The notes beneath the pieces are model-generated. The model searched no databases. It saw only the letters and a program-made list of their open reading frames with translations, and had not been told where the DNA came from. This document shows positions 2 to 44,233 of a DNA stretch of 44,407 nt, one piece after another; the stretch's first letter is position 1; the number at the start of each line of letters is the position of its first letter. The stretch comes from a virus. The position numbers and the translations under genes are program-made. The stretch is taken from positions 1 through 44,407 of IMG/VR virus record IMGVR_UViG_3300007344_000054, one strand, 5' to 3'.

Positions 2-1714
2 CCTCTACTCACATTTGGACAGAATGTACAGTTTGGACTTAAACTTGTAAATCAAGATACAGACGCAGTAGTTGATGAAACAAACCCTATTCAAGAAGGA
101 GAAGTACTTAGAATGGAGTTACATATGTCAGCAGTTGGTACTGCAGATTATGATGCTTTAGTTAACTTTAAGTATCTATTTTTAGACATTCAATATAACC
201 ACGACTTAATCACACCTGTAGAAGGTTGTTTTGATTTTCCAGGCATAGGCATTATAAGTGACCCTGGAGTGGTAACAGAAAAATATGATTTCTCTAATAC
301 AAGTTTTAACTCTTTAGATAATCATAACTTGATGCAAAAGTATATAGACTGGAAAGCTGGTAATATATCTTATGCACCTCAAAATGCTAAATGGAGTGTT
401 GTAAGGATAGCAATACAGCTATCCACTAAATCGTTCCAAGATTTATTATCTCCTGGAGACTACACTACAGCTACTTCTATATTTGACATGTGTTTTGATG
501 TTAAACCGGGATCGGCAGCAGACGTAGAGAAAGAATTCAGAATTAATTTAGCTGGATTAGAAGACACAGACGCTGCTTTACCTACCTCTATTTATGCTGA
601 TAAGTCAGAAGCTAGATATCTTTATTCAATTGAAGAAGCAGTAACATACTCTACTAAATTACATTTTGATTTACCTAACACTTTAGACCCTACTAATTTT
701 CAAGTAAACGTAGCTAAAGGATCAATGGGGCTGCAAGAAATGCCGACTACTTACACTTTAGATGCAAATGCTGATGTAGTAATAAATGATGTAAAATTAG
801 ATTCTGTATATTCTTTATTTACTTTAGAGCCAATAGATGGCTCATACATTCCAGATGTACATACAGTTACAGATGCTTATAGAGCATTTAAGTTTTTAAC
901 TGATGTAGGTATAAACGGAGGAGATTATATATACAACGGGTTTGAAGGATTCTCAGCAGACGCTAACTTAGACGGCACACTTAACTCTGCAGATACATAC
1001 GGTATACTTGCTTATGTGATGGGAGTAGATGTTTCAGGAGGTGACGGTCCAGGGTACTGTTTACCTGAACAGGCAGAAGATGGTACTTGGTACCACGGAT
1101 GTACTGCTACAGTAAAAATAGAAGATTATAATGAAGAGGTATTAGGAGCTTCTGTAGCACTCAATAAATCAGAAGGCGGTACAGGAGGAGGATGGTCTAG
1201 TGAATTTACCCCTACTGAAGAAGGACAGACATTTACTTTTGGATATTGGCATCATGTTGATTTAGATCAATCTCACAGTACAGCTTATCCTGCACAAATA
1301 ACAGCAAAAGCAGCAAAAGCAGACATTAGCCTGTCATCTAAAGCAGTTGGTACTGTTAACTTTGATATGGTTAGTAAAATAGAAGGAGGACAAGTAATAG
1401 TAGAATTAAATCATTCCGGTACTAATATTGTAGGAATGCAAGCTAGAATCAAATACGATACAAATAGACTTGTATTAAAAGATATTGTGTACGATACAGG
1501 TAACACAGCTACTAATTTCTCTAAAACATTAAACAAAGGATTACTATTCGGATCTCTATCAGTAGATGGTTCAACTAATATAAAAGAAGGCATACCTTTT
1601 AAATTAATATTCGATACGGTTGGTACAGTAAACAACACAACAGGTTTATTCTATTTCGAAAACACAGATGCTGTTAGAGCTAATGGTGATAAATTAACAT
1701 TAAACATAAATTAA
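2..1714 (+). CDS. Cohesin/dockerin-like surface or fibre protein, 5' partial
   Basis: The frame is open to the first bases of the window, so the gene begins upstream; the in-frame ATG at 113 is probably internal. The last 120 residues form a beta-rich segment with cohesin-like features (a 'KYDTNRLVL' strand and an 'IPFKLIFD' strand). Upstream, near position 960-1010, lies an EF-hand-type calcium loop, DANLDGTLNSAD, preceded by a helix, as in one dockerin half-repeat. In cellulosomes these domains mediate protein-protein docking; here they may hold fibre or adhesin parts together, which is inference. The next gene follows after one base, suggesting co-translation. A generic Ig-like or carbohydrate-binding fold is an alternative. 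Confidence 0.7.
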   Translation, partial: PLLTFGQNVQFGLKLVNQDTDAVVDETNPIQEGEVLRMELHMSAVGTADYDALVNFKYLFLDIQYNHDLITPVEGCFDFPGIGIISDPGVVTEKYDFSNTSFNSLDNHNLMQKYIDWKAGNISYAPQNAKWSVVRIAIQLSTKSFQDLLSPGDYTTATSIFDMCFDVKPGSAADVEKEFRINLAGLEDTDAALPTSIYADKSEARYLYSIEEAVTYSTKLHFDLPNTLDPTNFQVNVAKGSMGLQEMPTTYTLDANADVVINDVKLDSVYSLFTLEPIDGSYIPDVHTVTDAYRAFKFLTDVGINGGDYIYNGFEGFSADANLDGTLNSADTYGILAYVMGVDVSGGDGPGYCLPEQAEDGTWYHGCTATVKIEDYNEEVLGASVALNKSEGGTGGGWSSEFTPTEEGQTFTFGYWHHVDLDQSHSTAYPAQITAKAAKADISLSSKAVGTVNFDMVSKIEGGQVIVELNHSGTNIVGMQARIKYDTNRLVLKDIVYDTGNTATNFSKTLNKGLLFGSLSVDGSTNIKEGIPFKLIFDTVGTVNNTTGLFYFENTDAVRANGDKLTLNIN

Positions 1715-1715
1715 G

Positions 1716-2096
1716 ATGAACTGGAAATTTATAAAATATTATCAAACAGTTTTATTTACTCTTTTTCTTGCCTGCTCAACAGACGAGATTTACGAACCGA
1801 TCTATATGGAAGAGATTCCACAGGAATTAAAAATTGATGCATTAGTAGGTATAAAGTTAGAAAGTAACTTTGCTACAGATGTAATCAATATGAACGTAAA
1901 ACTTGATACTGAAGGTGAGTACTTTATAACAGTGTTAGATATCTCAAATAGAATTGTCTCTAAAGAAAAGGTTAGTGGTAAACTAGGTGATAATTTATTT
2001 AGAGTGTATACATCAACTTTACCTAAAAGCTCCTATAGATTAGAGTTGTATAGAGATCAAACTAAGGTTGGAACAACAAACATAAATTTAAGATGA
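1716..2096 (+). CDS. Small lipoprotein with beta domain resembling a T9SS C-terminal domain
   Basis: The 126-aa product has a short signal sequence ending in LFLAC, a plausible lipobox with Cys20. Acidic residues follow (STDE), as in the lipoprotein export signal of Bacteroidota. The remainder reads like a small beta sandwich: 'EYFITVLDISNRIVSKEKVSG', then 'LPKSSYRLELYRDQTKVG', ending TTNINLR. This pattern resembles the type A type-IX-secretion sorting domain, but here it makes up almost the whole protein, so sorting is not its obvious role. The start ATG lies one base after the previous stop, and the stop overlaps the next start (ATGA). Its function is unknown; attachment to host surface or a lysis accessory are possibilities. 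Confidence 0.75.
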   Translation: MNWKFIKYYQTVLFTLFLACSTDEIYEPIYMEEIPQELKIDALVGIKLESNFATDVINMNVKLDTEGEYFITVLDISNRIVSKEKVSGKLGDNLFRVYTSTLPKSSYRLELYRDQTKVGTTNINLR

Positions 2097-2350
2097 AAGA
2101 AATTAAAAACGCAATAATAGGCGTAATAGTCTTAGCTATCACTTCAGTAGGAGGAGTGATGATTAATAAATTTGTGGGGGGTGAAGAGGAAGATAAATCA
2201 GAAGTATCTACCCCTGCTCAACCAACTGTAATAGTAAATATACCTCAACAAGAAGCAAAAAAAGATACTGTCGTTAAGAGGGTATATGTTAAACCAACAC
2301 CAAAAAAGACTGAGACTGAAAAACGTAAAGAAGAAGGACTAGATTGGTAA
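2093..2350 (+). CDS. Small single-span membrane protein, possible lysis accessory
   Basis: The 85-aa product has one hydrophobic helix at about residues 6-27, then an acidic/charged stretch and a Pro/Lys/Val-rich tail ('VYVKPTPKKTE'). The start overlaps the preceding stop by four bases (ATGA). An N-terminal anchor with a periplasmic-length charged tail immediately before a holin-like gene and an endolysin is the topology of an inner-membrane spanin or lysis regulator, but there is no sequence motif that proves it. The family is not recognised. Confidence 0.7.
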   Translation: MKEIKNAIIGVIVLAITSVGGVMINKFVGGEEEDKSEVSTPAQPTVIVNIPQQEAKKDTVVKRVYVKPTPKKTETEKRKEEGLDW

Positions 2351-2354
2351 TATA

Positions 2355-2362
2355 TATTTATA
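2355..2362 (+). promoter_or_regulatory. Candidate late promoter box TATTTATA
   Basis: The octamer TATTTATA lies 14 bases before the holin-like gene's ATG. The same octamer stands before other structural or lysis genes and lacks the upstream TTTGG box found at the accessory genes. It may be the recognition site of the gp55-like sigma encoded at 18759; this is inference, and in AT-rich DNA the box can arise by chance. Confidence 0.4.
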
Positions 2363-2376
2363 ATAAAGATTAGACT

Positions 2377-2703
2377 ATGGAACAAACCTCACATACCCAA
2401 AAAAATAGAAATAAAAACAGATTTGTAATTACATCGGTTGTATTAGGAACATTTGCTTTTATTATGGTAGGAATTGGAGCTGCTATTTTAGGAGATGGAG
2501 ATACTCCTGCAATTAATCAAGAATGGAAAGAAATATTATTATTAGTATTAGGAGCATTTTTAGGTTCCTATTCTCGTATTATTGATTATTGGTTTAACGG
2601 TAGAGATGACGAACCACTAACACCTCCACCTACTCTTATAGAAGAAGGACATCCTAAATTTTGTGATAACTGTGGTGATCAAATAGATTACGATAATTTT
2701 TAA
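2377..2703 (+). CDS. Two-span membrane protein, holin candidate
   Basis: The 108-aa product has a charged N-terminus, hydrophobic helices at about residues 16-39 and 49-70, and a C-terminal cytosolic tail with a CDNC knuckle (only one Cys pair, so half a zinc ribbon). Size, two membrane spans and position four bases before an amidase endolysin fit a class II-like holin that opens the inner membrane at lysis. Holins are too diverse for sequence alone to settle this. It follows a TATTTATA box, suggesting late expression. Confidence 0.75.
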   Translation: MEQTSHTQKNRNKNRFVITSVVLGTFAFIMVGIGAAILGDGDTPAINQEWKEILLLVLGAFLGSYSRIIDYWFNGRDDEPLTPPPTLIEEGHPKFCDNCGDQIDYDNF

Positions 2704-2706
2704 GAT

Positions 2707-3198
2707 ATGGCTATACAACCTAAAGGAATTATTTTACATTCAATGTCTGAATATCTAGTATATGAAGGACAAAAATTATATGCTAAAGATTTTTTAACAA
2801 AATTAGGTCTATCAGTTCATGGATTTATTAAACCCGATGGAACTTATGACAAAATGGTTGAAACACCCGGTAAAGCATTTCATGCTGGAAAATCCCTACA
2901 TGAAGGTTTATCTGGATTAAATTCTTATTACTTAGGAGTAGAACTATTAGTACCCGGTACTAATGATTATGCTAGTTTTAGTAAAAAAATAAAAACACCT
3001 GGGACTTATTCTGAAGCACAGTTTGAACAAACTGTTAAAGTATTTAAGTTTTGGATGGATAAATATAATATACCTTCTAATCGTGTTGTACGTCATTCAG
3101 ATGTATCGGGAGATCACGTTAGAGGTAAAGGTAAAGGAAAAACAGACCCTGGCTCAGCTTTTGATTGGGACAGGTTCCAACAACAATTAGTTATATAA
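2707..3198 (+). CDS. N-acetylmuramoyl-L-alanine amidase (endolysin)
   Basis: The 163-aa single-domain protein matches the Amidase_2/T7-lysozyme type, which cleaves the bond between N-acetylmuramic acid and L-alanine in peptidoglycan. Candidate zinc ligands are His11 (ILHSMSE), His130 (VVRHSDVSG) and Asp147 (KTDPG); the HAGKS and GVELLV segments match the family core. There is no signal peptide, so it would need a holin, and the preceding gene is a suitable one. The length is typical for a minimal phage amidase. Confidence 0.92.
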   Translation: MAIQPKGIILHSMSEYLVYEGQKLYAKDFLTKLGLSVHGFIKPDGTYDKMVETPGKAFHAGKSLHEGLSGLNSYYLGVELLVPGTNDYASFSKKIKTPGTYSEAQFEQTVKVFKFWMDKYNIPSNRVVRHSDVSGDHVRGKGKGKTDPGSAFDWDRFQQQLVI

Positions 3199-3230
3199 AC
3201 ATTAATCAATTTTAAAACCAGTGAAGCGGA

Positions 3231-3425
3231 ATGAAAAATTTTATTACAAACTACAAAACACTCATGAGTGAGTGTGAGACACCTATTGACTATGTCCTAG
3301 CAGTATGGTTAAATTTATTAGCTGCAGTAGTCGTTACAGGCCTCGGAAAGGTAATTTTCGAACTTGTAACTAATCCATCACAATTTAACAACGCAACTTG
3401 GGGTATTTTCGATACCCTTGGGTAA
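3231..3425 (+). CDS. Small single-span membrane protein in lysis block
   Basis: The 64-aa product has one clear hydrophobic helix at about residues 22-45 flanked by charged segments. It sits 32 bases after the endolysin and overlaps the start of the CsgG-like gene by eight bases. It could be an antiholin, a second holin or a spanin-like element; the sequence shows only the membrane topology. Confidence 0.65.
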   Translation: MKNFITNYKTLMSECETPIDYVLAVWLNLLAAVVVTGLGKVIFELVTNPSQFNNATWGIFDTLG

Positions 3426-4134
3426 AAAAGTATTAGCTCTACTACTATTAGTATGCAGCTATACCTCAGCTCAAGTTATTGGTAAGACAACAACAGAAGA
3501 TTATCAAGCGGATTTCGAGAAAACAACCTCAATTCTTTCAATCCCTGAATATGACGGTGATCCAGTACCAGTTGCCTTACTTAATATAGGTGTTACAGAA
3601 GATGTATTACAACAATATCCTGAATTAAGAGATAATAGAGTTGGCTTAGGTCTAACTAATATTACTGTTGCTTTTTTAGATGAAACCTGGAGATTTGAAT
3701 TCGTTGAAACTAGAGACGAAATTAAAGATCGAATGGTTAAACAATATAAAGCATCTCAAAAGGGAATAACTGCCAATGAAACTAATATTATTGGTAAGAT
3801 TACTTTAGCTAAATTTTTTATTTATGTTGAAGTATATGATTACTCTGTATCAGAAGATGAAACGGTAAACCTAAAAGACGGAGTAAAAAATACTCTTGTA
3901 ACTAGATTAGGTTTACAAATTAGAGCAGTTGATTCTGAAACAGGGCTCTATATGACAGGTTCTGGATTAGGTAAAGCTATTACTACTAGAGAACTTACCT
4001 TATCAAATTCAGACAACTTAGACGAAGTAAAATTCAATTCCTCTTCTATTGGTATTACTACTAGAAAAGCATTAGAAACAGCTGTGGCTAAGATAGTTAA
4101 AAGGATGATTCGTAAGGGTGTATTTGACCATTAA
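3418..4134 (+). CDS. CsgG-like outer-membrane secretion pore protein
   Basis: The 238-aa product starts with a signal peptide (MGKKVLALLLLVCSYTSAQ). The TTG at 3418 is the only start that keeps it, as the next in-frame ATG is far inside. The body has CsgG-family features: 'WRFEFVETRDEIKDRMVKQ' matches the family's 'vveR..l..il.E' segment, and the C-terminal 'SIGITTRKALETAVAKIVKRM' matches its 'A...Al..A...l' helix. CsgG oligomerises into an outer-membrane channel for curli export. The lipobox is poor (Val before Cys), so signal peptidase I cleavage after SA is more likely than lipidation. It overlaps the upstream gene by eight bases and shares a base with the next start (TAATG). Related genes have been reported in some marine myophages with a suggested lysis role. 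Confidence 0.82.
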   Translation: MGKKVLALLLLVCSYTSAQVIGKTTTEDYQADFEKTTSILSIPEYDGDPVPVALLNIGVTEDVLQQYPELRDNRVGLGLTNITVAFLDETWRFEFVETRDEIKDRMVKQYKASQKGITANETNIIGKITLAKFFIYVEVYDYSVSEDETVNLKDGVKNTLVTRLGLQIRAVDSETGLYMTGSGLGKAITTRELTLSNSDNLDEVKFNSSSIGITTRKALETAVAKIVKRMIRKGVFDH

Positions 4135-5693
4135 TGAAAAAAATATTTGTTTTATTATTATTTTTAATAAGTAACTTTGTATCTGCTCAAAATTTAATAC
4201 AAACTTATGTTGACCGTTGTACTGGTGAAGTAAAAATATTTTCTGTACCTTTAAATGGTGCAACGGTTGTTACTTATTATGATAAATCTAGAACATTTAC
4301 ATCACAAGATTTTCAAAATGGAACTCTACAAGCTTGGTTAGAACAAACATATTTATGGTGGAGTAATTTAAGTCCTTGTTCTACAAATCAAGTAGCTACA
4401 ACAGCAACCCAACAAACTACCCAACAAACTACTCAACAGGCAACACAGGCAGCTACTAATGCTGCTCAACAAACAGCAAATACAACTGTAAATGTATCAC
4501 CTCCTCCAGTTAGCACTCCCACACCTACACCAACACCTCAGCCTACGACTGCAACTACTCAAAATACTTCTCAAAATACTGGTTCTACAAATTCAACTCA
4601 AGGAACGACAAATAATGCTAGCACGGGAAGTAGTTCGTCAAATACCGGAGGATCTACTTCAAGCTCGTCTAGCGCTCAAACAAACAATAGCTCTTCTGAA
4701 ACAACAAACTCAACTTCAAATGAAACTCAGAATGGATCTTCAGACTCTACTACATCCGGAACAGAAGACACTCAATCAGGAACTTCAGGAAATGATGGAG
4801 GAACAGAAGACACAACCTCAGAAGTAGAAAATACTACAGAGGAAACTACTACTGAAGAATCAACTGAAGAAACCACATCTGAGGAATCAACTGAAGAAAG
4901 TACAGAGGAATCTACTGAAGAGGAATCAACAGAGGAAGAATCAACTGAAGAAGAAAGTGAAGAATCATCTGAAGAATCAGATGAAGAGGAAGAAGAAGAT
5001 AAAAAAAAGAAAAAGAAACAAACATCTGCCCCACCTATAATTTCTGCAAATATCGCTTCACTTCAGAATCTGGATGGAACCTACAATCAAGCATTTACAA
5101 TAGGAATATCCCAAAGCTCTCTTATGGGAACCAGTACCTATGGTGCTACCTTTATGGTATGGGATAATTTACAACAATTTATGTTAAATTTAAATTATTC
5201 TCGAATCCATGTTAATAAAAAAGGAAGAATAAGTAGGGTTTATTCTGCTTCTGTAGGTGGGGTAAAGATGTTTTCTACATTAGTAGGAATGACTAATCAT
5301 AGTATAGTTTTTTTAGGTAAAAAGGGATCGGTAGCAGGTATAGCTTTAGGAGCAAATATGGTTGCTATAAATGGTCAAAAATTAAGAGGACAATTTCTTG
5401 TTGATCAGTTATTAGCTGGAGCATCCTTAACGGGTTTTTATACAAAACCTTTTAATTTTGATAGATTAACAATTAGTCCTATGTTAGCTATATCAAATCC
5501 TTTTATATCATTTGATATGTATGAACATACAACAACATGGAATAAAAATGTTATGATAATAGCTGGTTCTAATTTTGATTATAAATTAACTAAAAGATTT
5601 AATATTAATCTTGGAATAAACTCAGTAGGATCAACACTCCCAGATTTTCCTATTATAACTAATTTTACAGTTGGATCAAGGTTCAGTTTTTAA
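4134..5693 (+). CDS. Exported protein with low-complexity linker and outer-membrane barrel-like domain
   Basis: The 519-aa product has a signal peptide ending in VSAQ. A roughly 65-residue N-terminal domain follows with Cys pairs and a Trp-rich end (WLEQTYLWWSNL). Next comes a Gln/Thr/Ser/Pro linker of about 140 residues, an acidic Glu/Ser/Thr tract ending in a Lys run (to about residue 300), and a C-terminal domain of alternating strands. The protein ends FTVGSRFSF, whose last Phe is the usual BAM recognition signal of outer-membrane barrels. It is coupled to the CsgG-like gene by a shared stop/start base, implying joint action at the outer membrane. Roles in outer-membrane rupture, curli-like export or superinfection exclusion are inference. 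Confidence 0.8.
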   Translation: MKKIFVLLLFLISNFVSAQNLIQTYVDRCTGEVKIFSVPLNGATVVTYYDKSRTFTSQDFQNGTLQAWLEQTYLWWSNLSPCSTNQVATTATQQTTQQTTQQATQAATNAAQQTANTTVNVSPPPVSTPTPTPTPQPTTATTQNTSQNTGSTNSTQGTTNNASTGSSSSNTGGSTSSSSSAQTNNSSSETTNSTSNETQNGSSDSTTSGTEDTQSGTSGNDGGTEDTTSEVENTTEETTTEESTEETTSEESTEESTEESTEEESTEEESTEEESEESSEESDEEEEEDKKKKKKQTSAPPIISANIASLQNLDGTYNQAFTIGISQSSLMGTSTYGATFMVWDNLQQFMLNLNYSRIHVNKKGRISRVYSASVGGVKMFSTLVGMTNHSIVFLGKKGSVAGIALGANMVAINGQKLRGQFLVDQLLAGASLTGFYTKPFNFDRLTISPMLAISNPFISFDMYEHTTTWNKNVMIIAGSNFDYKLTKRFNINLGINSVGSTLPDFPIITNFTVGSRFSF

Positions 5694-6106: not shown

Positions 6107-6679
6107 ATGAATATGTTTGCCCAAAATTTTTTGATTGCCCCTACACCATCACCCACACCATCTCCTACTCCAGCACCTACTCCAGCTCCAACTGCACCGG
6201 CACCTACACCTACTCCTACACCGGCAACACCTGCACCTACTCCTACACCTGCAACACCTGCACCAGCAACACCTGCTCCTGCAACACCTGCACCGGCAAC
6301 ACCTACACCAACACCTGCACCTGCAACACCAACACCTACTCCTGCAACACCAACACCTACTCCTGCAACACCAACACCTACTCCTGCAACTCCTGCACCT
6401 GCAACACCTACACCTACACCTTCACCTACTCCAGCACCAACTTGTACTGTAGCTGCTTTATTTTACGGTAATACAGGCGATGCTGCATGTAATGCTAATA
6501 CAAGGTATACTACATATAACCCAGAAGGAGATGATGGCCCTGTAGCTAATGGTGTTGCTATTTACAGCAATAGTACTTGTAATACTCCTGCTCCTTCAAG
6601 ATGGTATGCTGATTTATACGGGATTTATGATTTTTGGAATGGAAATACCTGGGCGGGTAGTGGTGGATCATGTTTTTAG
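6107..6679 (+). CDS. Pro/Thr/Ala-repeat stalk with Cys-bounded tip domain, fibre-like
   Basis: The 190-aa product has a short N-terminus, about 100 residues of P-T-P/P-A-P repeats (residues 11-111), and a compact C-terminal domain. That domain has Cys at about residue 113 and further Cys residues before the terminal SCF. The segment 'ALFYGNTGDAACNANTRYTT' with a later 'SRWYADLYGIYDFWN' looks like the small Cys-bounded domains repeated in the larger tail protein at 39057. An extended stalk carrying a small adhesive tip is the likely architecture. The start is uncertain: MNMFAQ could begin at either Met. Confidence 0.7.
   Translation: MNMFAQNFLIAPTPSPTPSPTPAPTPAPTAPAPTPTPTPATPAPTPTPATPAPATPAPATPAPATPTPTPAPATPTPTPATPTPTPATPTPTPATPAPATPTPTPSPTPAPTCTVAALFYGNTGDAACNANTRYTTYNPEGDDGPVANGVAIYSNSTCNTPAPSRWYADLYGIYDFWNGNTWAGSGGSCF
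6137..6439 (+). repeat. Degenerate Pro/Thr/Ala coding minisatellite
   Basis: Short units such as CCTACTCCTGCAACACCAACA recur in register, three nearly identical copies standing at about 6333-6385. They encode the stalk of the fibre-like protein. Such tracts can change length by slippage. Confidence 0.85.
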
Positions 6680-8339: not shown

Positions 8340-8789
8340 ATGGCATTGTTACAATTTTCAAATAAAAACAAACATGGTAATATTAGAACTCGTATATTTT
8401 ACCATCCTTCTACAAGTATAAGTTATAACCCCTCAGGTTTTGGAAGTTTTACAGCTGTTAGATGTTTTAAATACGAGTATGAACATCCTGTAATGGCACC
8501 AACATTGTTAAAAAGGGATGGTAAAACATATTTAATGCCCGAGTGGAGGGAAGTACATCCTAAAACAACATTAAACGATATTATTTGGAAAAAACCAAAA
8601 GTAAAAAAACAAAATAAATTTGAAAAGAAAACATGGAAATTTGAATCATCAAGTAGTGATTCAGTTTACACAGTAACACAGGTTGATTCTGCTACCATAA
8701 ACTGTAACTGTCCTGGTTTCTATAGAGCAAAAGATAGAAATTTAGGATGTAAACACGTTCAAAAAGTCAGAGCAAGTCTAACTAAATGA
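8340..8789 (+). CDS. SWIM-type zinc-finger protein
   Basis: The 149-aa product has a basic N-terminal half and a C-terminal SWIM motif, CxC-x12-CxH, formed by Cys122, Cys124, Cys137 and His139 in the run from NCNCPGFY to LGCKH. SWIM fingers bind nucleic acid or protein and occur in transposases, helicases and ubiquitin-related proteins. Here it stands alone, so a nucleic-acid-binding regulator is a reasonable guess. It has its own promoter and overlaps the next gene's start by four bases (ATGA). Confidence 0.8.
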   Translation: MALLQFSNKNKHGNIRTRIFYHPSTSISYNPSGFGSFTAVRCFKYEYEHPVMAPTLLKRDGKTYLMPEWREVHPKTTLNDIIWKKPKVKKQNKFEKKTWKFESSSSDSVYTVTQVDSATINCNCPGFYRAKDRNLGCKHVQKVRASLTK

Positions 8790-9391
8790 ATTATATGAGG
8801 AAATATGCTACAAATGTTGCACTCGTACTATTATTAATGCTTGTTTCGGCTTTTGTTGAAGCAAAATCTAAACTAATTATATATAGAGATCATAGTCCTA
8901 TTGTAATTAAAACTACTTCTATTTTAACAACCTTACCTAAAATAAAATCCAACACTTCAGTTCCTATTATTAAAAACCATTATAGGTTTTTAGAAGACTT
9001 AGGAATGAGAGAATCATCTAAAAATTATAAAGCCGTAAATAGATTTGGATATTTAGGTAAATACCAGTTTGGTAGAAAAACTCTTGATGCATTAGGATAT
9101 AAACATATATCTAATAGAGAATTTTTATCTGATCCTGATTTACAAGAACAAATTATGGAAGATCTTTTAGTACATAATAAAAAAATACTTAGGAGATATA
9201 TTAAAAAATATAATAATAAGACAATTCATGGAGTATATGTTACTGAATCAGGTATCTTAGCTGCTGCTCATTTAGCAGGAGCAGGTAATGTAAGAAGATT
9301 TTTTCGTAATGGAAAAAACTTTGCTGATGGTAATGGGACCAAAATGACTTCATATATGAAACAATTTGCAAATTATAAATTAAACATTTAA
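8786..9391 (+). CDS. Exported lysozyme/transglycosylase-like protein
   Basis: The 201-aa product has a hydrophobic signal or anchor at about residues 9-27 (ending FVEAKS) and a lysozyme-superfamily segment starting 'RESSKNYKAVNRFGYLGKYQFG'. The Glu of RESS is the likely catalytic acid and GKYQFG is typical of transglycosylase-like peptidoglycan hydrolases. A helical part with 'AAAHLAGAGNVRRFF' follows. It would cut glycan strands from the periplasm without a holin. An internal ATG at 8795 is an alternative start that keeps the signal. It is a second cell-wall enzyme besides the amidase at 2707. Confidence 0.8.
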   Translation: MNYMRKYATNVALVLLLMLVSAFVEAKSKLIIYRDHSPIVIKTTSILTTLPKIKSNTSVPIIKNHYRFLEDLGMRESSKNYKAVNRFGYLGKYQFGRKTLDALGYKHISNREFLSDPDLQEQIMEDLLVHNKKILRRYIKKYNNKTIHGVYVTESGILAAAHLAGAGNVRRFFRNGKNFADGNGTKMTSYMKQFANYKLNI

Positions 9392-9932: not shown

Positions 9933-10235
9933 ATGAAAACTATTTTAATTATTATTTTAGTTGTTGCTGCAATTGCAGGAGCAATTTTTGTTGCTACCAA
10001 GTATTTTGGATTATTTAGTGACACAGACAAGGACGGAATTCCGGACGAAGTTGAAAACGTTGTTGAAGACGTTAAAGCTACTGCTAAAGAAGTAAAACGT
10101 AGAGCAAAGAGAGTTAAAGAAGAGCTAGGAGATGTAGCTGATGCTGCTAAAGACGTTCTTGAACAAGCCGGAGATGTAGCTGCTGCTGCTAAAGGTAAAC
10201 CAAGAAAAGGTCGTAAACCTAGAACTAAAAAATAA
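9933..10235 (+). CDS. Membrane-anchored coiled-coil protein with EF-hand-like loop
   Basis: The 100-aa product has an N-terminal membrane helix (about residues 3-26) followed by DTDKDGIPDEVE, a calcium-binding loop of the EF-hand or thrombospondin-3 type. A roughly 45-residue alanine-rich amphipathic helix comes next, and a very basic tail (KGKPRKGRKPRTKK) closes the protein. The layout recalls YtxH-type proteins that line a membrane. The tail could contact DNA or phosphate-rich surfaces; no function is known. The nuclease gene starts two bases after its stop. Confidence 0.7.
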   Translation: MKTILIIILVVAAIAGAIFVATKYFGLFSDTDKDGIPDEVENVVEDVKATAKEVKRRAKRVKEELGDVADAAKDVLEQAGDVAAAAKGKPRKGRKPRTKK

Positions 10236-10236
10236 A

Positions 10237-10845
10237 TTGAAAAAGTTACTATTAGTTTTATTAACATTAACTTATCTAAGTTGCACAGCCCAAGATAATT
10301 ATGTTAAACCTGACTTAAGGACTTCAGTTGAAATCAAAAATCAAATATTTCATGTTTGGTATTCTGAAACTAAAGAACAACCCTTAGTATTAATTTATAA
10401 ATCATCTAACCGTCCTAAGAATGTAGATAGAGGTTCTATGAACTTTTATACCGAAGATGATTATCATACTTCAGATAATGCAGATTATTATAGAAACGTA
10501 TGGGATAAAGGACATTTAGCTCCTGCTGCTACATTTAGTGATTCTAAAGAAAATCTTAAACAAACATTTTCCTATTTAAATTGTGCTCTACAAAACCAAT
10601 ACCTCAATAGAGGAGCTTGGAGATTATTAGAAGAACAAGAAAGAAAATGGGACGACACACAGGAACTTGTAATTAAAATAGATATCAAATTCTCAGATTC
10701 TATTTTACCTACGGGTGCAACACTACCTTTAAGGTTTATTAAGCATGTAAAATTTACAAAGGATAATATATACAAGTGTTATGATTTTCCTAATGAACGC
10801 CCAACCAAAGATTGGGAAGAATATCAAGTAATACATGCACATTAG
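10237..10845 (+). CDS. Exported DNA/RNA non-specific endonuclease (NucA/Serratia type)
   Basis: The 202-aa product has a signal peptide, MKKLLLVLLTLTYLSCTAQ, present only if the TTG at 10237 is the start. LSC could act as a lipobox. The nuclease core has the D-(R/K)-G-H motif at residues 90-93 (WDKGHLAPAA, His93 the general base). It continues with Asn115 in 'NCALQNQYLNRGAW', where Asn120 or Asn124 should bind the metal. This beta-beta-alpha-metal family cuts single- and double-stranded nucleic acid. Export would place it in the periplasm or on the surface, where it could destroy competing phage DNA or scavenge nucleotides; that is inference. Confidence 0.88.
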   Translation: MKKLLLVLLTLTYLSCTAQDNYVKPDLRTSVEIKNQIFHVWYSETKEQPLVLIYKSSNRPKNVDRGSMNFYTEDDYHTSDNADYYRNVWDKGHLAPAATFSDSKENLKQTFSYLNCALQNQYLNRGAWRLLEEQERKWDDTQELVIKIDIKFSDSILPTGATLPLRFIKHVKFTKDNIYKCYDFPNERPTKDWEEYQVIHAH

Positions 10846-13237: not shown

Positions 13238-13438
13238 ATGACACTAGAAGAAGTAGCAATGCACCATCGAATTAATCCCAACAGTTTAAACACAAAAGAT
13301 GATGCGTTAAAAATAGGGATCAAATCAATTAAAGAACTAGTGCCAATAATGGAAAAAAGGGGCGTAGACAAAAACACAATAAGTGATATAAAAAGGCTAG
13401 GATTATTCTTTCAAGATGTAATAAACACATCAATGTAA
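13238..13438 (+). CDS. Small helical hypothetical protein (66 aa)
   Basis: The 66-aa helical product (MTLEEVAMHHRINPNSLNTK...) begins like a helix-turn-helix: 'LEEVAMHHRINPNSL' could be the first two helices of a small DNA-binding fold, but the rest does not confirm it. It is the last gene of the operon starting at 11750; noncoding DNA follows. Confidence 0.6.
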   Translation: MTLEEVAMHHRINPNSLNTKDDALKIGIKSIKELVPIMEKRGVDKNTISDIKRLGLFFQDVINTSM

Positions 13439-13578
13439 AAAAAACATAATAAAAAAGCTAGTAATAATCTCAGCAAATAATATTACGAATGACTCACGAG
13501 CTAAAAGTTTACCGACGATCTCAATGTGTCACAATACGTATATACCATCCTAACCCATACCAACCATAAACACGTTAG
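13439..13578. other. AT-rich spacer, nothing recognised
   Basis: About 140 bases with no long frame, hairpin or promoter pair of the type seen elsewhere. Only poly-A stretches at the start could relate to transcript ends. Confidence 0.5.
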
Positions 13579-13701
13579 ATGAAAGCAATACAACGAAACA
13601 CCCGAGTAAAATGGCATAACCCAACAGGTGAATTGGTAAACATTATAGTACACCAATTTAATTTGTATCGTAGGTTTAAACGTATATTCAAACGAGGTTA
13701 A
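13579..13701 (+). CDS. Possible very small basic protein (40 aa)
   Basis: ATG 13579 to TAA 13701 encodes a 40-aa product rich in Arg and Lys (starts MKAIQRNTRVKWHNPTGELV). The beginning reads like a small SH3-type strand pair. No promoter pair precedes it and no neighbour couples to it, so chance remains possible. Confidence 0.4.
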   Translation: MKAIQRNTRVKWHNPTGELVNIIVHQFNLYRRFKRIFKRG

Positions 13702-13951
13702 TAAACGATTTGGGGCTGGTAAACATAAACACGCTGGTATTCATGGTATAACAACGCCATACTTGCGCTTACTATCCCCTATCCACCCTATGCCCATCTT
13801 AATATTCTAAATGCGTTATACGCGTTACCTATAATGTTATATATTACAATACCGATATAAGGATATTGGGAGGTATGTAGATATGTAGATGTGTATTACC
13901 AAGTGATACGGGGTAGGTAGTAGGTGCGAGGCGGGGTGTATACACTTTTGC
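13702..13951. other. Noncoding stretch with C-rich and G-rich tracts
   Basis: No frame of note. A C-rich tract (about 13769-13796, CCCC/CC/CCC/CCC runs) is followed about 115 bases later by a G-rich tract at 13910-13936 (GGGG, several GG, GGGG). Both stand out in AT-rich DNA. They could pair at long range or fold locally; function unknown. Confidence 0.5.
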
Positions 13952-14086
13952 ATGCATGCCACCAAATTTTCTTATCGAACAGTATATATTTTGTTAAATG
14001 CACAATTAGCACCGTTGGAAGAAAAAATGATTCACAATAAAATGCGTGTTAAAATGAGGATACTTCAAAAATGTAAAGTAATTTAA
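13952..14086 (+). CDS. Possible very small basic protein (44 aa)
   Basis: ATG 13952 to TAA 14086 encodes a 44-aa basic helical product (MHATKFSYRTVYILLNAQLA...). A second ATG lies four bases downstream in another frame. There is no promoter pair in front. Real but unprovable from sequence alone. Confidence 0.35.
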   Translation: MHATKFSYRTVYILLNAQLAPLEEKMIHNKMRVKMRILQKCKVI

Positions 14087-43384: not shown

Positions 43385-43412
43385 GCTTCCTCAGTATCTT
43401 TTCGTATATTTA
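43381..43412 (+). promoter_or_regulatory. Bacteroidota-type promoter, CTAGGCTTCC and TATATTTA
   Basis: CTAG (43381-43384, imperfect TTTG), 20-base spacer, TATATTTA (43405-43412), which also contains TATTTATA at 43407-43414. It drives the kinase gene at 43433 and could respond to both sigma types. Confidence 0.65.
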
Positions 43413-43432
43413 TATGTTGACAATGTAACCCT

Positions 43433-44233
43433 ATGTATAAATTACGAGATATAATCTTAGAACAATCCGTTAATCCTAAGGCACTTATACTTGCTGGCTC
43501 TCCAGGAGCTGGTAAATCTTCGTTTATCGAAGGTGTAAAGAATGCTTTAATATTAAATGTAGATGATTTCTACATGCGTAATCTAAAAGATTTAAATGTA
43601 TCTTTAGATTTAAAAAATGCAAATGCTGAAGATCGAAGTAAAGCAGCACAAGCAATGGCTGCAGCTAATAAGGAATTTCGCCCAATGACACGTGAAATTA
43701 TCTTAGGTAAAAAGAATTTTATCTTAGATGGAACAGCTGCTTCTTCTGGACCTACATTAAAATTGAAGGCTGAATTAGAAGAACTAGGCTATGATGTATT
43801 AATGGTATATGTATTTGCTTCACTAGAAAAAGCACTAGAACGAAATGATACACGATTTGATCGTTCAGGTGGAAAAGACAGAAGTTTAGCACCTGCTATC
43901 GTACTTCGTACTTGGAATAATATAACTCAAAACTACGAGTTGTATCAAAAAGAATTTGGAAACAATTTTGTATCGGTTGTAAACGATAAAGCATTAGAAA
44001 AAGGAGAATCTATGAAATCTTTAGAAGATTTAATAGATAAATATCTTACACCCTATGCCCCAACTGATACAAAACCAAAAACCGATAAACAACAAGCTCG
44101 TTCTGATGCTTCAAAAGCAGAATTAGAGAAACAAATTAATGATTTTGTAGAATCAGATAAAGTAGAAGATATCAAATCAAATTCCGTATCTAAAGACGAG
44201 GCAAAATCTAGAGTAAAACAGTTCTTCTCATGA
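43433..44233 (+). CDS. P-loop kinase (zeta-toxin/AAA-type) with capsid-targeting-like leader
   Basis: The 266-aa product has Walker A G22-SPGAGK28-S29 at the very start of the fold, then 'ILNVDDFYMRN' (acceptor-side Asp pair), 'KNFILDGTAASSGP' and 'VYVFASLEKALERNDTRF', as in zeta-toxin-like and uridine-kinase-like enzymes. Residues 1-10, MYKLRDIILE, form a leader ending I-I-L-E, a prohead-protease-like site. The C-terminal 60 residues are a charged helical tail. The substrate is unknown. It overlaps the next gene by four bases. Confidence 0.82.
   Translation: MYKLRDIILEQSVNPKALILAGSPGAGKSSFIEGVKNALILNVDDFYMRNLKDLNVSLDLKNANAEDRSKAAQAMAAANKEFRPMTREIILGKKNFILDGTAASSGPTLKLKAELEELGYDVLMVYVFASLEKALERNDTRFDRSGGKDRSLAPAIVLRTWNNITQNYELYQKEFGNNFVSVVNDKALEKGESMKSLEDLIDKYLTPYAPTDTKPKTDKQQARSDASKAELEKQINDFVESDKVEDIKSNSVSKDEAKSRVKQFFS

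Follow-up and report, generated by a model that had tools for sequence, protein, structure and literature searches.

A conserved gene cassette of Bacteroidetes myophages that may span the envelope of infected cells and display a variable surface protein

Why does a phage carry, next to its lysis genes, a gene for a CsgG-like protein and one for an outer-membrane barrel protein whose linker is long and acidic? The question is raised by the IMG/VR virus record IMGVR_UViG_3300007344_000054, all 44,407 bases of which form the window analysed here. The initial annotation, made from the sequence alone, had delimited a block at 2093-5693 in which lysis genes run into this pair of genes, termed E and F below, and had proposed that the pair either replaces spanins in breaching the outer membrane or exports a fibre. 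The reading that we favour, to which we give about an even chance, is that E and F are components of an envelope-spanning module, made late, whose task is to export or display a variable surface protein, formed by the products of two further genes, A and B, on infected cells.

The window is a fragment of a larger genome, the contigs of two relatives (L025 and L032; relatives are cited by such numbers) and the genome of Flavobacterium phage immuto being about 160-170 kb long. Within the block, all six open reading frames (ORFs) were confirmed at the positions, in the order and with the spacing originally given. Their overlaps are 4 nt (at 2093), 8 nt (at 3418) and 1 nt (at 4134), the second of which recurs in 17 loci and the third in 25. 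The gene positions stand, but the extent of the block does not, as the 5' half of the cassette had been missed. The functional unit begins upstream of 2093 and includes the two preceding ORFs, A and B (Table 1), and in relatives a gene still further upstream, Z, which lies outside the window because the window opens partway through A. From the gene order of about 95 loci, the cassette is defined as Z-A-B-C-(D)-E-F, in which B, like D, is optional. Z, A, C, E and F occur together in 38 of the 41 viral loci that have enough flanking sequence and were dereplicated at 95% identity of E; fractions of 41 given below refer to this set. A pattern scan shows that at least 556 IMG/VR stretches encode a relative of E. 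Among 84,980 species genomes, E relatives are confined to two contigs, both from metagenome-assembled genomes (MAGs), and a cellular origin was rejected, since among the 199 genomes of the family of one Flavobacterium MAG, E occurs only in that MAG's own contig. In 50,697 phage records, relatives are found only in four records of Flavobacterium phage immuto, in which E is 48% identical over its whole length and F has a counterpart of its N-terminal 82 residues. The cultured carriers belong to the phage genus Immutovirus, whose host is Flavobacterium sp. LMO8. The carriers are large Bacteroidetes myophages, and the cassette of six or seven genes is real and widespread in this large, uncharacterised virus group; its function is what we infer here. 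No paper describing the cassette or the E-F pair was found in the open-access literature, to which searching was limited, in agreement with the earlier impression that a CsgG-like protein paired with an acidic-linker barrel may be undescribed.

The members of the cassette differ widely in conservation. Median identities fall from 77% for E, 55% for Z and 53% for the N-terminal domain of F to 41% for the F barrel, 41% for C, 37% for B and 30% for A, a gradient that sets a stable machinery against the variable surface proteins A and B. Pairwise distances of A and B are highly correlated (r 0.94; partial correlation given E and Z, 0.92, with shared ancestry controlled in part only), compared to 0.47 for A and E. 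Since the adjacent pairs Z-A and B-C reach only 0.48 and 0.56, respectively, linkage alone does not explain the covariation of A and B. Moreover, A covaries with the F barrel (partial correlation 0.46) more than with the F N-terminal domain (0.15), and it is swapped independently of E: relative to the window, E is 92% and A 21% identical in L003, and the corresponding values in L025 are 67% and 52%.

Relatives of A carry signal peptides, and the end of one (PLLTFGQ) is visible at the start of the window, where the reading frame runs open from base 2, with the first ATG at 113. Pfam Cohesin matches ten of 16 A relatives at an E-value of at most 0.1 (best 5.9e-9), and cellulosomal cohesin chains in the PDB match A at 7e-4 in a profile search. 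The dockerin-like loop is a pattern only, the Pfam Dockerin match (0.068, in one member) being non-significant. For B, the type IX secretion domain Por_Secre_tail matches 26 of 35 relatives at an E-value of at most 1 (best 1.3e-7; 0.054 for the B protein of the window). At least two acidic residues at positions +2 to +6 after the Cys are present in 46 of 66 B proteins vs two of 33 other lipoproteins, an acidic run that we take to resemble Bacteroidetes surface-export signals. In loci that lack B, nine of 14 A proteins have a C-terminal Por_Secre_tail (E-value of at most 0.1, best 1.9e-11), whereas such a tail is absent from all 15 A proteins encoded in loci with B. B itself carries this domain, and the sorting domain is thus either split off from A or fused to it. 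We take the lone Por_Secre_tail match among the 16 A relatives to come from immuto, in which B is absent and A ends in a sorting-domain-like tail.

The F product (4134-5693, 519 amino acids (aa)) carries a signal peptide. In its model, residues 20-79, part of an N-terminal domain that is conserved across relatives, have a predicted local distance difference test (pLDDT) score of about 77-92 except at the ends, residues 117-286 are mostly below 50, and residues 302-518 form 12 strands at about 90. In VIA structure comparisons the barrel matches the NalP translocator (Z score 23.5), KdgM (19.3, root-mean-square deviation 1.6 Å) and FapF (18.8). The last residue of F is F or L, the signal for the β-barrel assembly machinery (BAM), in 74 of 77 relatives. 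The barrel with its BAM signal and the long acidic linker, both noted in the initial annotation, are therefore borne out. CsgF was considered as a counterpart of the N-terminal domain of F and rejected, the similarity being a 16-column chance match.

E is likewise exported, with an [AGS]Q-type signal peptide cleavage site in 76 of 78 relatives. Its AlphaFold2 model, which was built on a 31-member alignment and like that of F is a monomer, is of moderate quality (pLDDT 66.7; predicted template modelling score 0.60). The best PDB matches of this model in Foldseek are all CsgG (E-value 8.9e-9, about 1e-8), and VIA gives Z scores of 12.1 for CsgG (about 160-170 residues at 2.9-3.7 Å), 10.4 for Cj1090c, 9.6 for PelC and about 9 for LptE. 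The best viral match of E is an annotated phage CsgG (3.6e-8). Fold prediction had been put forward earlier as a test, and indeed the E model resembles CsgG and the F model is a barrel. Neither E nor F of the window has a significant Pfam match. Pfam CsgG (PF03783) was not found in any of 14 E relatives at an E-value of 1, nor in a six-frame search of the record, which did detect the E. coli CsgG control. Since both the Pfam and the profile-profile scores are non-significant, E was rejected as a Pfam CsgG or a sequence homologue of CsgG, and only the likeness in fold stands. E as a membrane pore is putative and unproven.

This bears on the possibility that E is a true CsgG-type pore of an exporter resembling the type VIII secretion system, which would secrete an amyloid, or A as a cohesin-dockerin-linked fibre, and thereby trap sibling cells. 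Such an exporter would be consistent with the CsgG fold of E, the FapF-like barrel, the occurrence of a cohesin-like domain and a dockerin-like loop on one chain, and the 'sibling capture' proposed for pelagiphage curli genes (PMC7029224). However, E has no Pfam CsgG match, lipobox or profile homology to CsgG, no match to CsgF was obtained, no CsgA/B-like gene was noticed and the Dockerin match is non-significant, all of which makes this explanation rather improbable. The earlier suggestion of fibre export nevertheless came nearer the mark in one respect, as the cassette includes a secreted, fast-diversifying pair, A-B; its other element, a pore formed by E, is not established.

Z carries a signal peptide and matches Pfam Lipoprotein_16 (YajG), at 3.2e-6 and above the curated cut-off in its first member and at a permissive level in six of seven members. 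Searches of PDB sequences with profiles of E and Z yielded chance matches only; Z is placed by its Lipoprotein_16 match alone. Finally, C is present in all 41 loci and ends in Trp in 80 of 80 distinct relatives, and relatives of D are found in 18 of 41 loci.

We propose that C (and D) would anchor an assembly in the inner membrane, with the invariant Trp at the end of C as its docking point. E and Z, which are both CsgG/YajG-like, would form a periplasmic ring or adaptor beneath the F barrel, and the N-terminal domain of F would hold or meet E. This apparatus would export or present A at the cell surface, where A would be held by the lipoprotein B or, in phages that lack B, by its own type IX sorting domain. 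It would be made late, from the lysis locus. The resulting surface layer would probably change binding by the infected cell or its debris, be it adhesion of neighbours or exclusion of other phages. Surface display by such a module is supported by the export signals on every soluble member and by the retention of the cassette as a unit in 38 of 41 loci despite lysin swaps. It is further supported by the sorting domain being carried either by B or by the A of B-less loci, the codivergence of A and B, the covariation of A with the F barrel and the exchange of A independently of E. The similarity of the F barrel to autotransporter translocators and to the amyloid exporter FapF, and the acidic, surface-export-like motif of B, point in the same direction.

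Several observations count against surface display. The presumed envelope assembly rests on monomer models. E lacks a lipobox, the Cys found within its first 30 residues in 31 of 78 relatives being unconserved, and of its two putative membrane hairpins the first has a facial hydropathy of about 1.5 vs 1.6 in CsgG, and the second is weakly amphipathic but with a wide range (0.5-2.2 vs 2.0). The 'CsgG-like pore' of the initial annotation survives as a predicted fold and a putative pore, but not as a lipid-anchored, Pfam-recognised CsgG. The Cohesin match of the A protein in the window is sub-threshold (E-value 0.018, under the curated cut-off). Moreover, A proteins of B-less phages would use the host type IX system, and hence E and F need not export A. 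Lastly, the placement in the lysis locus, seen in 35 of 41 loci, is unexplained by surface display alone.

Table 1. Features of the cassette and its lysis genes in the window.
Feature	Position	Strand	Description
A	2..1714	+	Secreted; cohesin-like C-terminal domain; EF-hand/dockerin-like loop DANLDGTLNSAD; 5' end cut by window edge
B	1716..2096	+	Lipoprotein (LFLAC); fold like a type IX secretion C-terminal sorting domain; acidic stretch after Cys
C	2093..2350	+	85 aa; one N-terminal transmembrane segment; short Pro/Lys/Glu-rich tail, presumably periplasmic; C-terminal Trp
HOL, holin-like	2377..2703	+	108 aa; two transmembrane segments; named by topology and place only
Endolysin, N-acetylmuramoyl-L-alanine amidase	2707..3198	+	163 aa; Amidase_2 PF01510 (4.7e-17); PDB AmpD family (8.7e-9)
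D	3231..3425	+	64 aa; one transmembrane segment; ends NATWGIFDTLG; overlaps E by 8 nt
E	3418..4134	+	238 aa; TTG start; exported; predicted CsgG fold; best conserved of the cassette proteins
F, signal peptide and conserved N-terminal domain	4134..4382	+	QTYVDRCTG...WLEQTYLWW..L.PC; presumably periplasmic
F, linker	4383..5009	+	Thr/Ser/Gln-rich, then Glu-rich; disordered; 209 residues, 42 acidic, 3 basic
F, outer-membrane barrel	5010..5690	+	12-stranded; ends ...GSRFSF

The lysis-locus setting itself is genuine: in 35 of 41 loci the region -5/+6 kb around E contains an endolysin, which belongs to one of six types (the number falls to 29 when the count is confined to the first four types listed below). 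Holin-like proteins are found in 31 of 41, so that the association with lysis genes made in the initial annotation holds well beyond the window. The six types are Amidase_2, GH19, Peptidase_M15_3, a type judged NlpC-like by eye, and two PHROG families assigned to the lysin slot, of which one has an additional match to an endolysin PHROG. The amidase of the window is thus an exchangeable neighbour, whose slot holds other lysin types in relatives. On the E tree, the type of the nearest lysin changes at least ten times and its side at least six times, and these repeated swaps indicate that the cassette has stayed with lysis genes. Our first view, derived from immuto, that the adjacency is an accident was dropped after the six lysin types had been counted across loci. 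In immuto the pair lies at 13.7-15.9 kb, with one annotated endolysin at 22.1 kb (about 6 kb off) and an endolysin-holin locus at 43.7-44.8 kb (about 28 kb off).

Such a setting invites the explanation that the cassette acts in lysis: C/D in the inner membrane, E/Z in the periplasm and F in the outer membrane would together span the envelope as a complex that ruptures or weakens the outermost layer, replacing or helping spanins, and that is triggered after the endolysin has removed the peptidoglycan. Besides the endolysins and holin-like genes kept nearby through repeated lysin swaps, it would account for members that span from the inner to the outer membrane and for a window in which no spanin is seen. 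Kongari et al. note that 13% of the phages in their analysis lack a recognisable spanin and that the part of the o-spanin could be played by an outer-membrane protein (PMC6139136); moreover, the CsgG of phage Melnitz has been proposed to act in lysis (PMC9004378). However, 12 of 41 loci have, beside the endolysin, an i-spanin-like gene with a transmembrane segment and a coiled coil (PHROG 'Rz-like spanin', best 5.9e-6), and a second gene, for an exported protein, overlaps it by 77-128 nt in another frame. This is the architecture of overlapped two-component spanins, but as its second protein has no lipobox, the pair is no more than a candidate spanin. Where it is present, replacement of spanins by E and F is unlikely. 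In addition, the cassette of immuto is far from the endolysins and the holin, and a secreted pair of cohesin and type IX secretion type has no obvious role in lysis. Taken together, we consider a function in lysis the main rival explanation, possible but rather unlikely, and the claim that E and F replace spanins is left unsupported by the Rz-like pairs and by the position of the immuto cassette. The observation that no classical spanin pair is evident stands for the window, a 44-kb fragment of a larger genome, and in loci with the window-type arrangement (the window, L009, L024 and L025) no Rz-like pair was seen nearby.

In L003, the Rz-like pair is encoded at 13393-13746 and 13631-14059. Its second protein is exported, has a coiled coil and a C-terminal hydrophobic segment, and lacks a lipobox; equivalents occur in 11 other dereplicated loci. 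C and B were also considered as a spanin pair and set aside as doubtful: their topology fits loosely, inspection of C by eye, without a coiled-coil program, reveals no coiled coil, and B is a sandwich similar to the type IX secretion C-terminal domain.

Export and lysis could also be combined in one undescribed machine, encoded by the phage and consisting of a periplasmic CsgG/YajG ring, an acidic-linker barrel in the outer membrane and a Trp-tailed anchor in the inner membrane, which would push the variable cohesin-like protein out across the outer membrane late in infection and at the same time prime the outer membrane for lysis. We regard this version as doubtful, though worth keeping in mind. 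Alternatively, the products might not be envelope proteins of infected cells at all, but adhesins of the virion or its tail. A does diversify fast and is cohesin-like, as is often the case for receptor-facing proteins. However, the products have signal peptides, one carries a lipoprotein signal and another forms an outer-membrane barrel, features that send them out of the cytoplasm, where virions are assembled, and the cassette adjoins lysis genes, not baseplate genes. There is accordingly very little chance that these are virion proteins, and display on infected cells remains the reading we prefer.

Several neighbouring genes recur. Relatives of HOL, placed on either side of E/F, are found in 11 of 41 loci, and HOL has no Pfam or PHROG holin match. 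A small family with two transmembrane segments and the motif NEKSVVGF (L025 7372-7599, L087 9678-9944, immuto 43386-43721), which has no PHROG holin match, accompanies endolysins of different types and is likely an unrecognised holin-type protein. An endonuclease of the NUC1-type DNA/RNA non-specific family is encoded in or near the cassette (window 10237-10845, L060 9189-9800, L087 12259-12882, immuto 9935-10513). Its Pfam matches range from 2e-17 to 4e-40 in two relatives, it is apparently exported in the relatives examined, and it may digest DNA outside the cytoplasm. An exported 201-aa protein of the window (8786-9391) resembles lytic transglycosylases or muramidases by eye and had no match in a PDB sequence search. 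Just downstream of F, the ORF at 6107-6679 encodes a protein in which Pro-Thr-Ala repeats, spanning about 100 residues, precede a domain that contains Cys. Finally, a 160-aa coiled-coil lipoprotein with a thrombospondin-3-like loop (L025 6578-7060) is encoded between B and C in seven of 41 loci; it is not found in the window.

The cassette is present in hundreds of environmental viral contigs and in one cultured phage genus, Immutovirus, and can therefore be tested. If the display function is true, it would represent a widespread way to alter adhesion or to block competing phages in Bacteroidetes; if the lysis role is true, the cassette would explain how these phages get through the outer membrane.

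How does the cassette compare with known systems? CsgG, the type VIII channel of curli, is the best structural match of E, and shares its predicted fold and a collinear C-terminal half. It differs in that E is only about 15% identical, does not match PF03783, has no lipidated Cys and has a weakly amphipathic second hairpin, and in that no genes for CsgE, CsgF, CsgA or CsgB were recognised with the cassette. A true CsgG with a lipobox exists separately in Flavobacteriales, and the Cys is lipidated in both the E. coli and the Flavobacteriales protein. CsgG-type genes of pelagiphages and of phage Melnitz have been discussed in terms of 'sibling capture' or lysis control (PMC7029224, PMC9599517, PMC9004378). 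Their curli cassettes (CsgG, CsgF, CsgA/B, FecR) are similar in that a CsgG-type gene is carried by a phage as part of a set of several genes for exported proteins. In contrast, the cassette described here combines the YajG-like Z, the cohesin-like A, B with its likeness to the type IX secretion C-terminal domain and the barrel F, its hosts are Bacteroidetes, and E has no detectable sequence homology to CsgG. Compared to Rz/Rz1 spanins, a coiled coil is not apparent by eye in C, the beta-sandwich of B is similar to the type IX secretion C-terminal domain, and 12 of 41 loci have an Rz-like pair besides; shared features are an envelope-spanning set that adjoins holin and endolysin, with C as a single-transmembrane inner-membrane protein and B as a lipoprotein. 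Finally, F differs from FapF and autotransporter translocators in its low identity (about 10%), its acidic linker and its N-terminal domain, and no Fap genes were recognised, but it has in common with them a 12-stranded barrel that is preceded by an N-terminal domain and a long linker.

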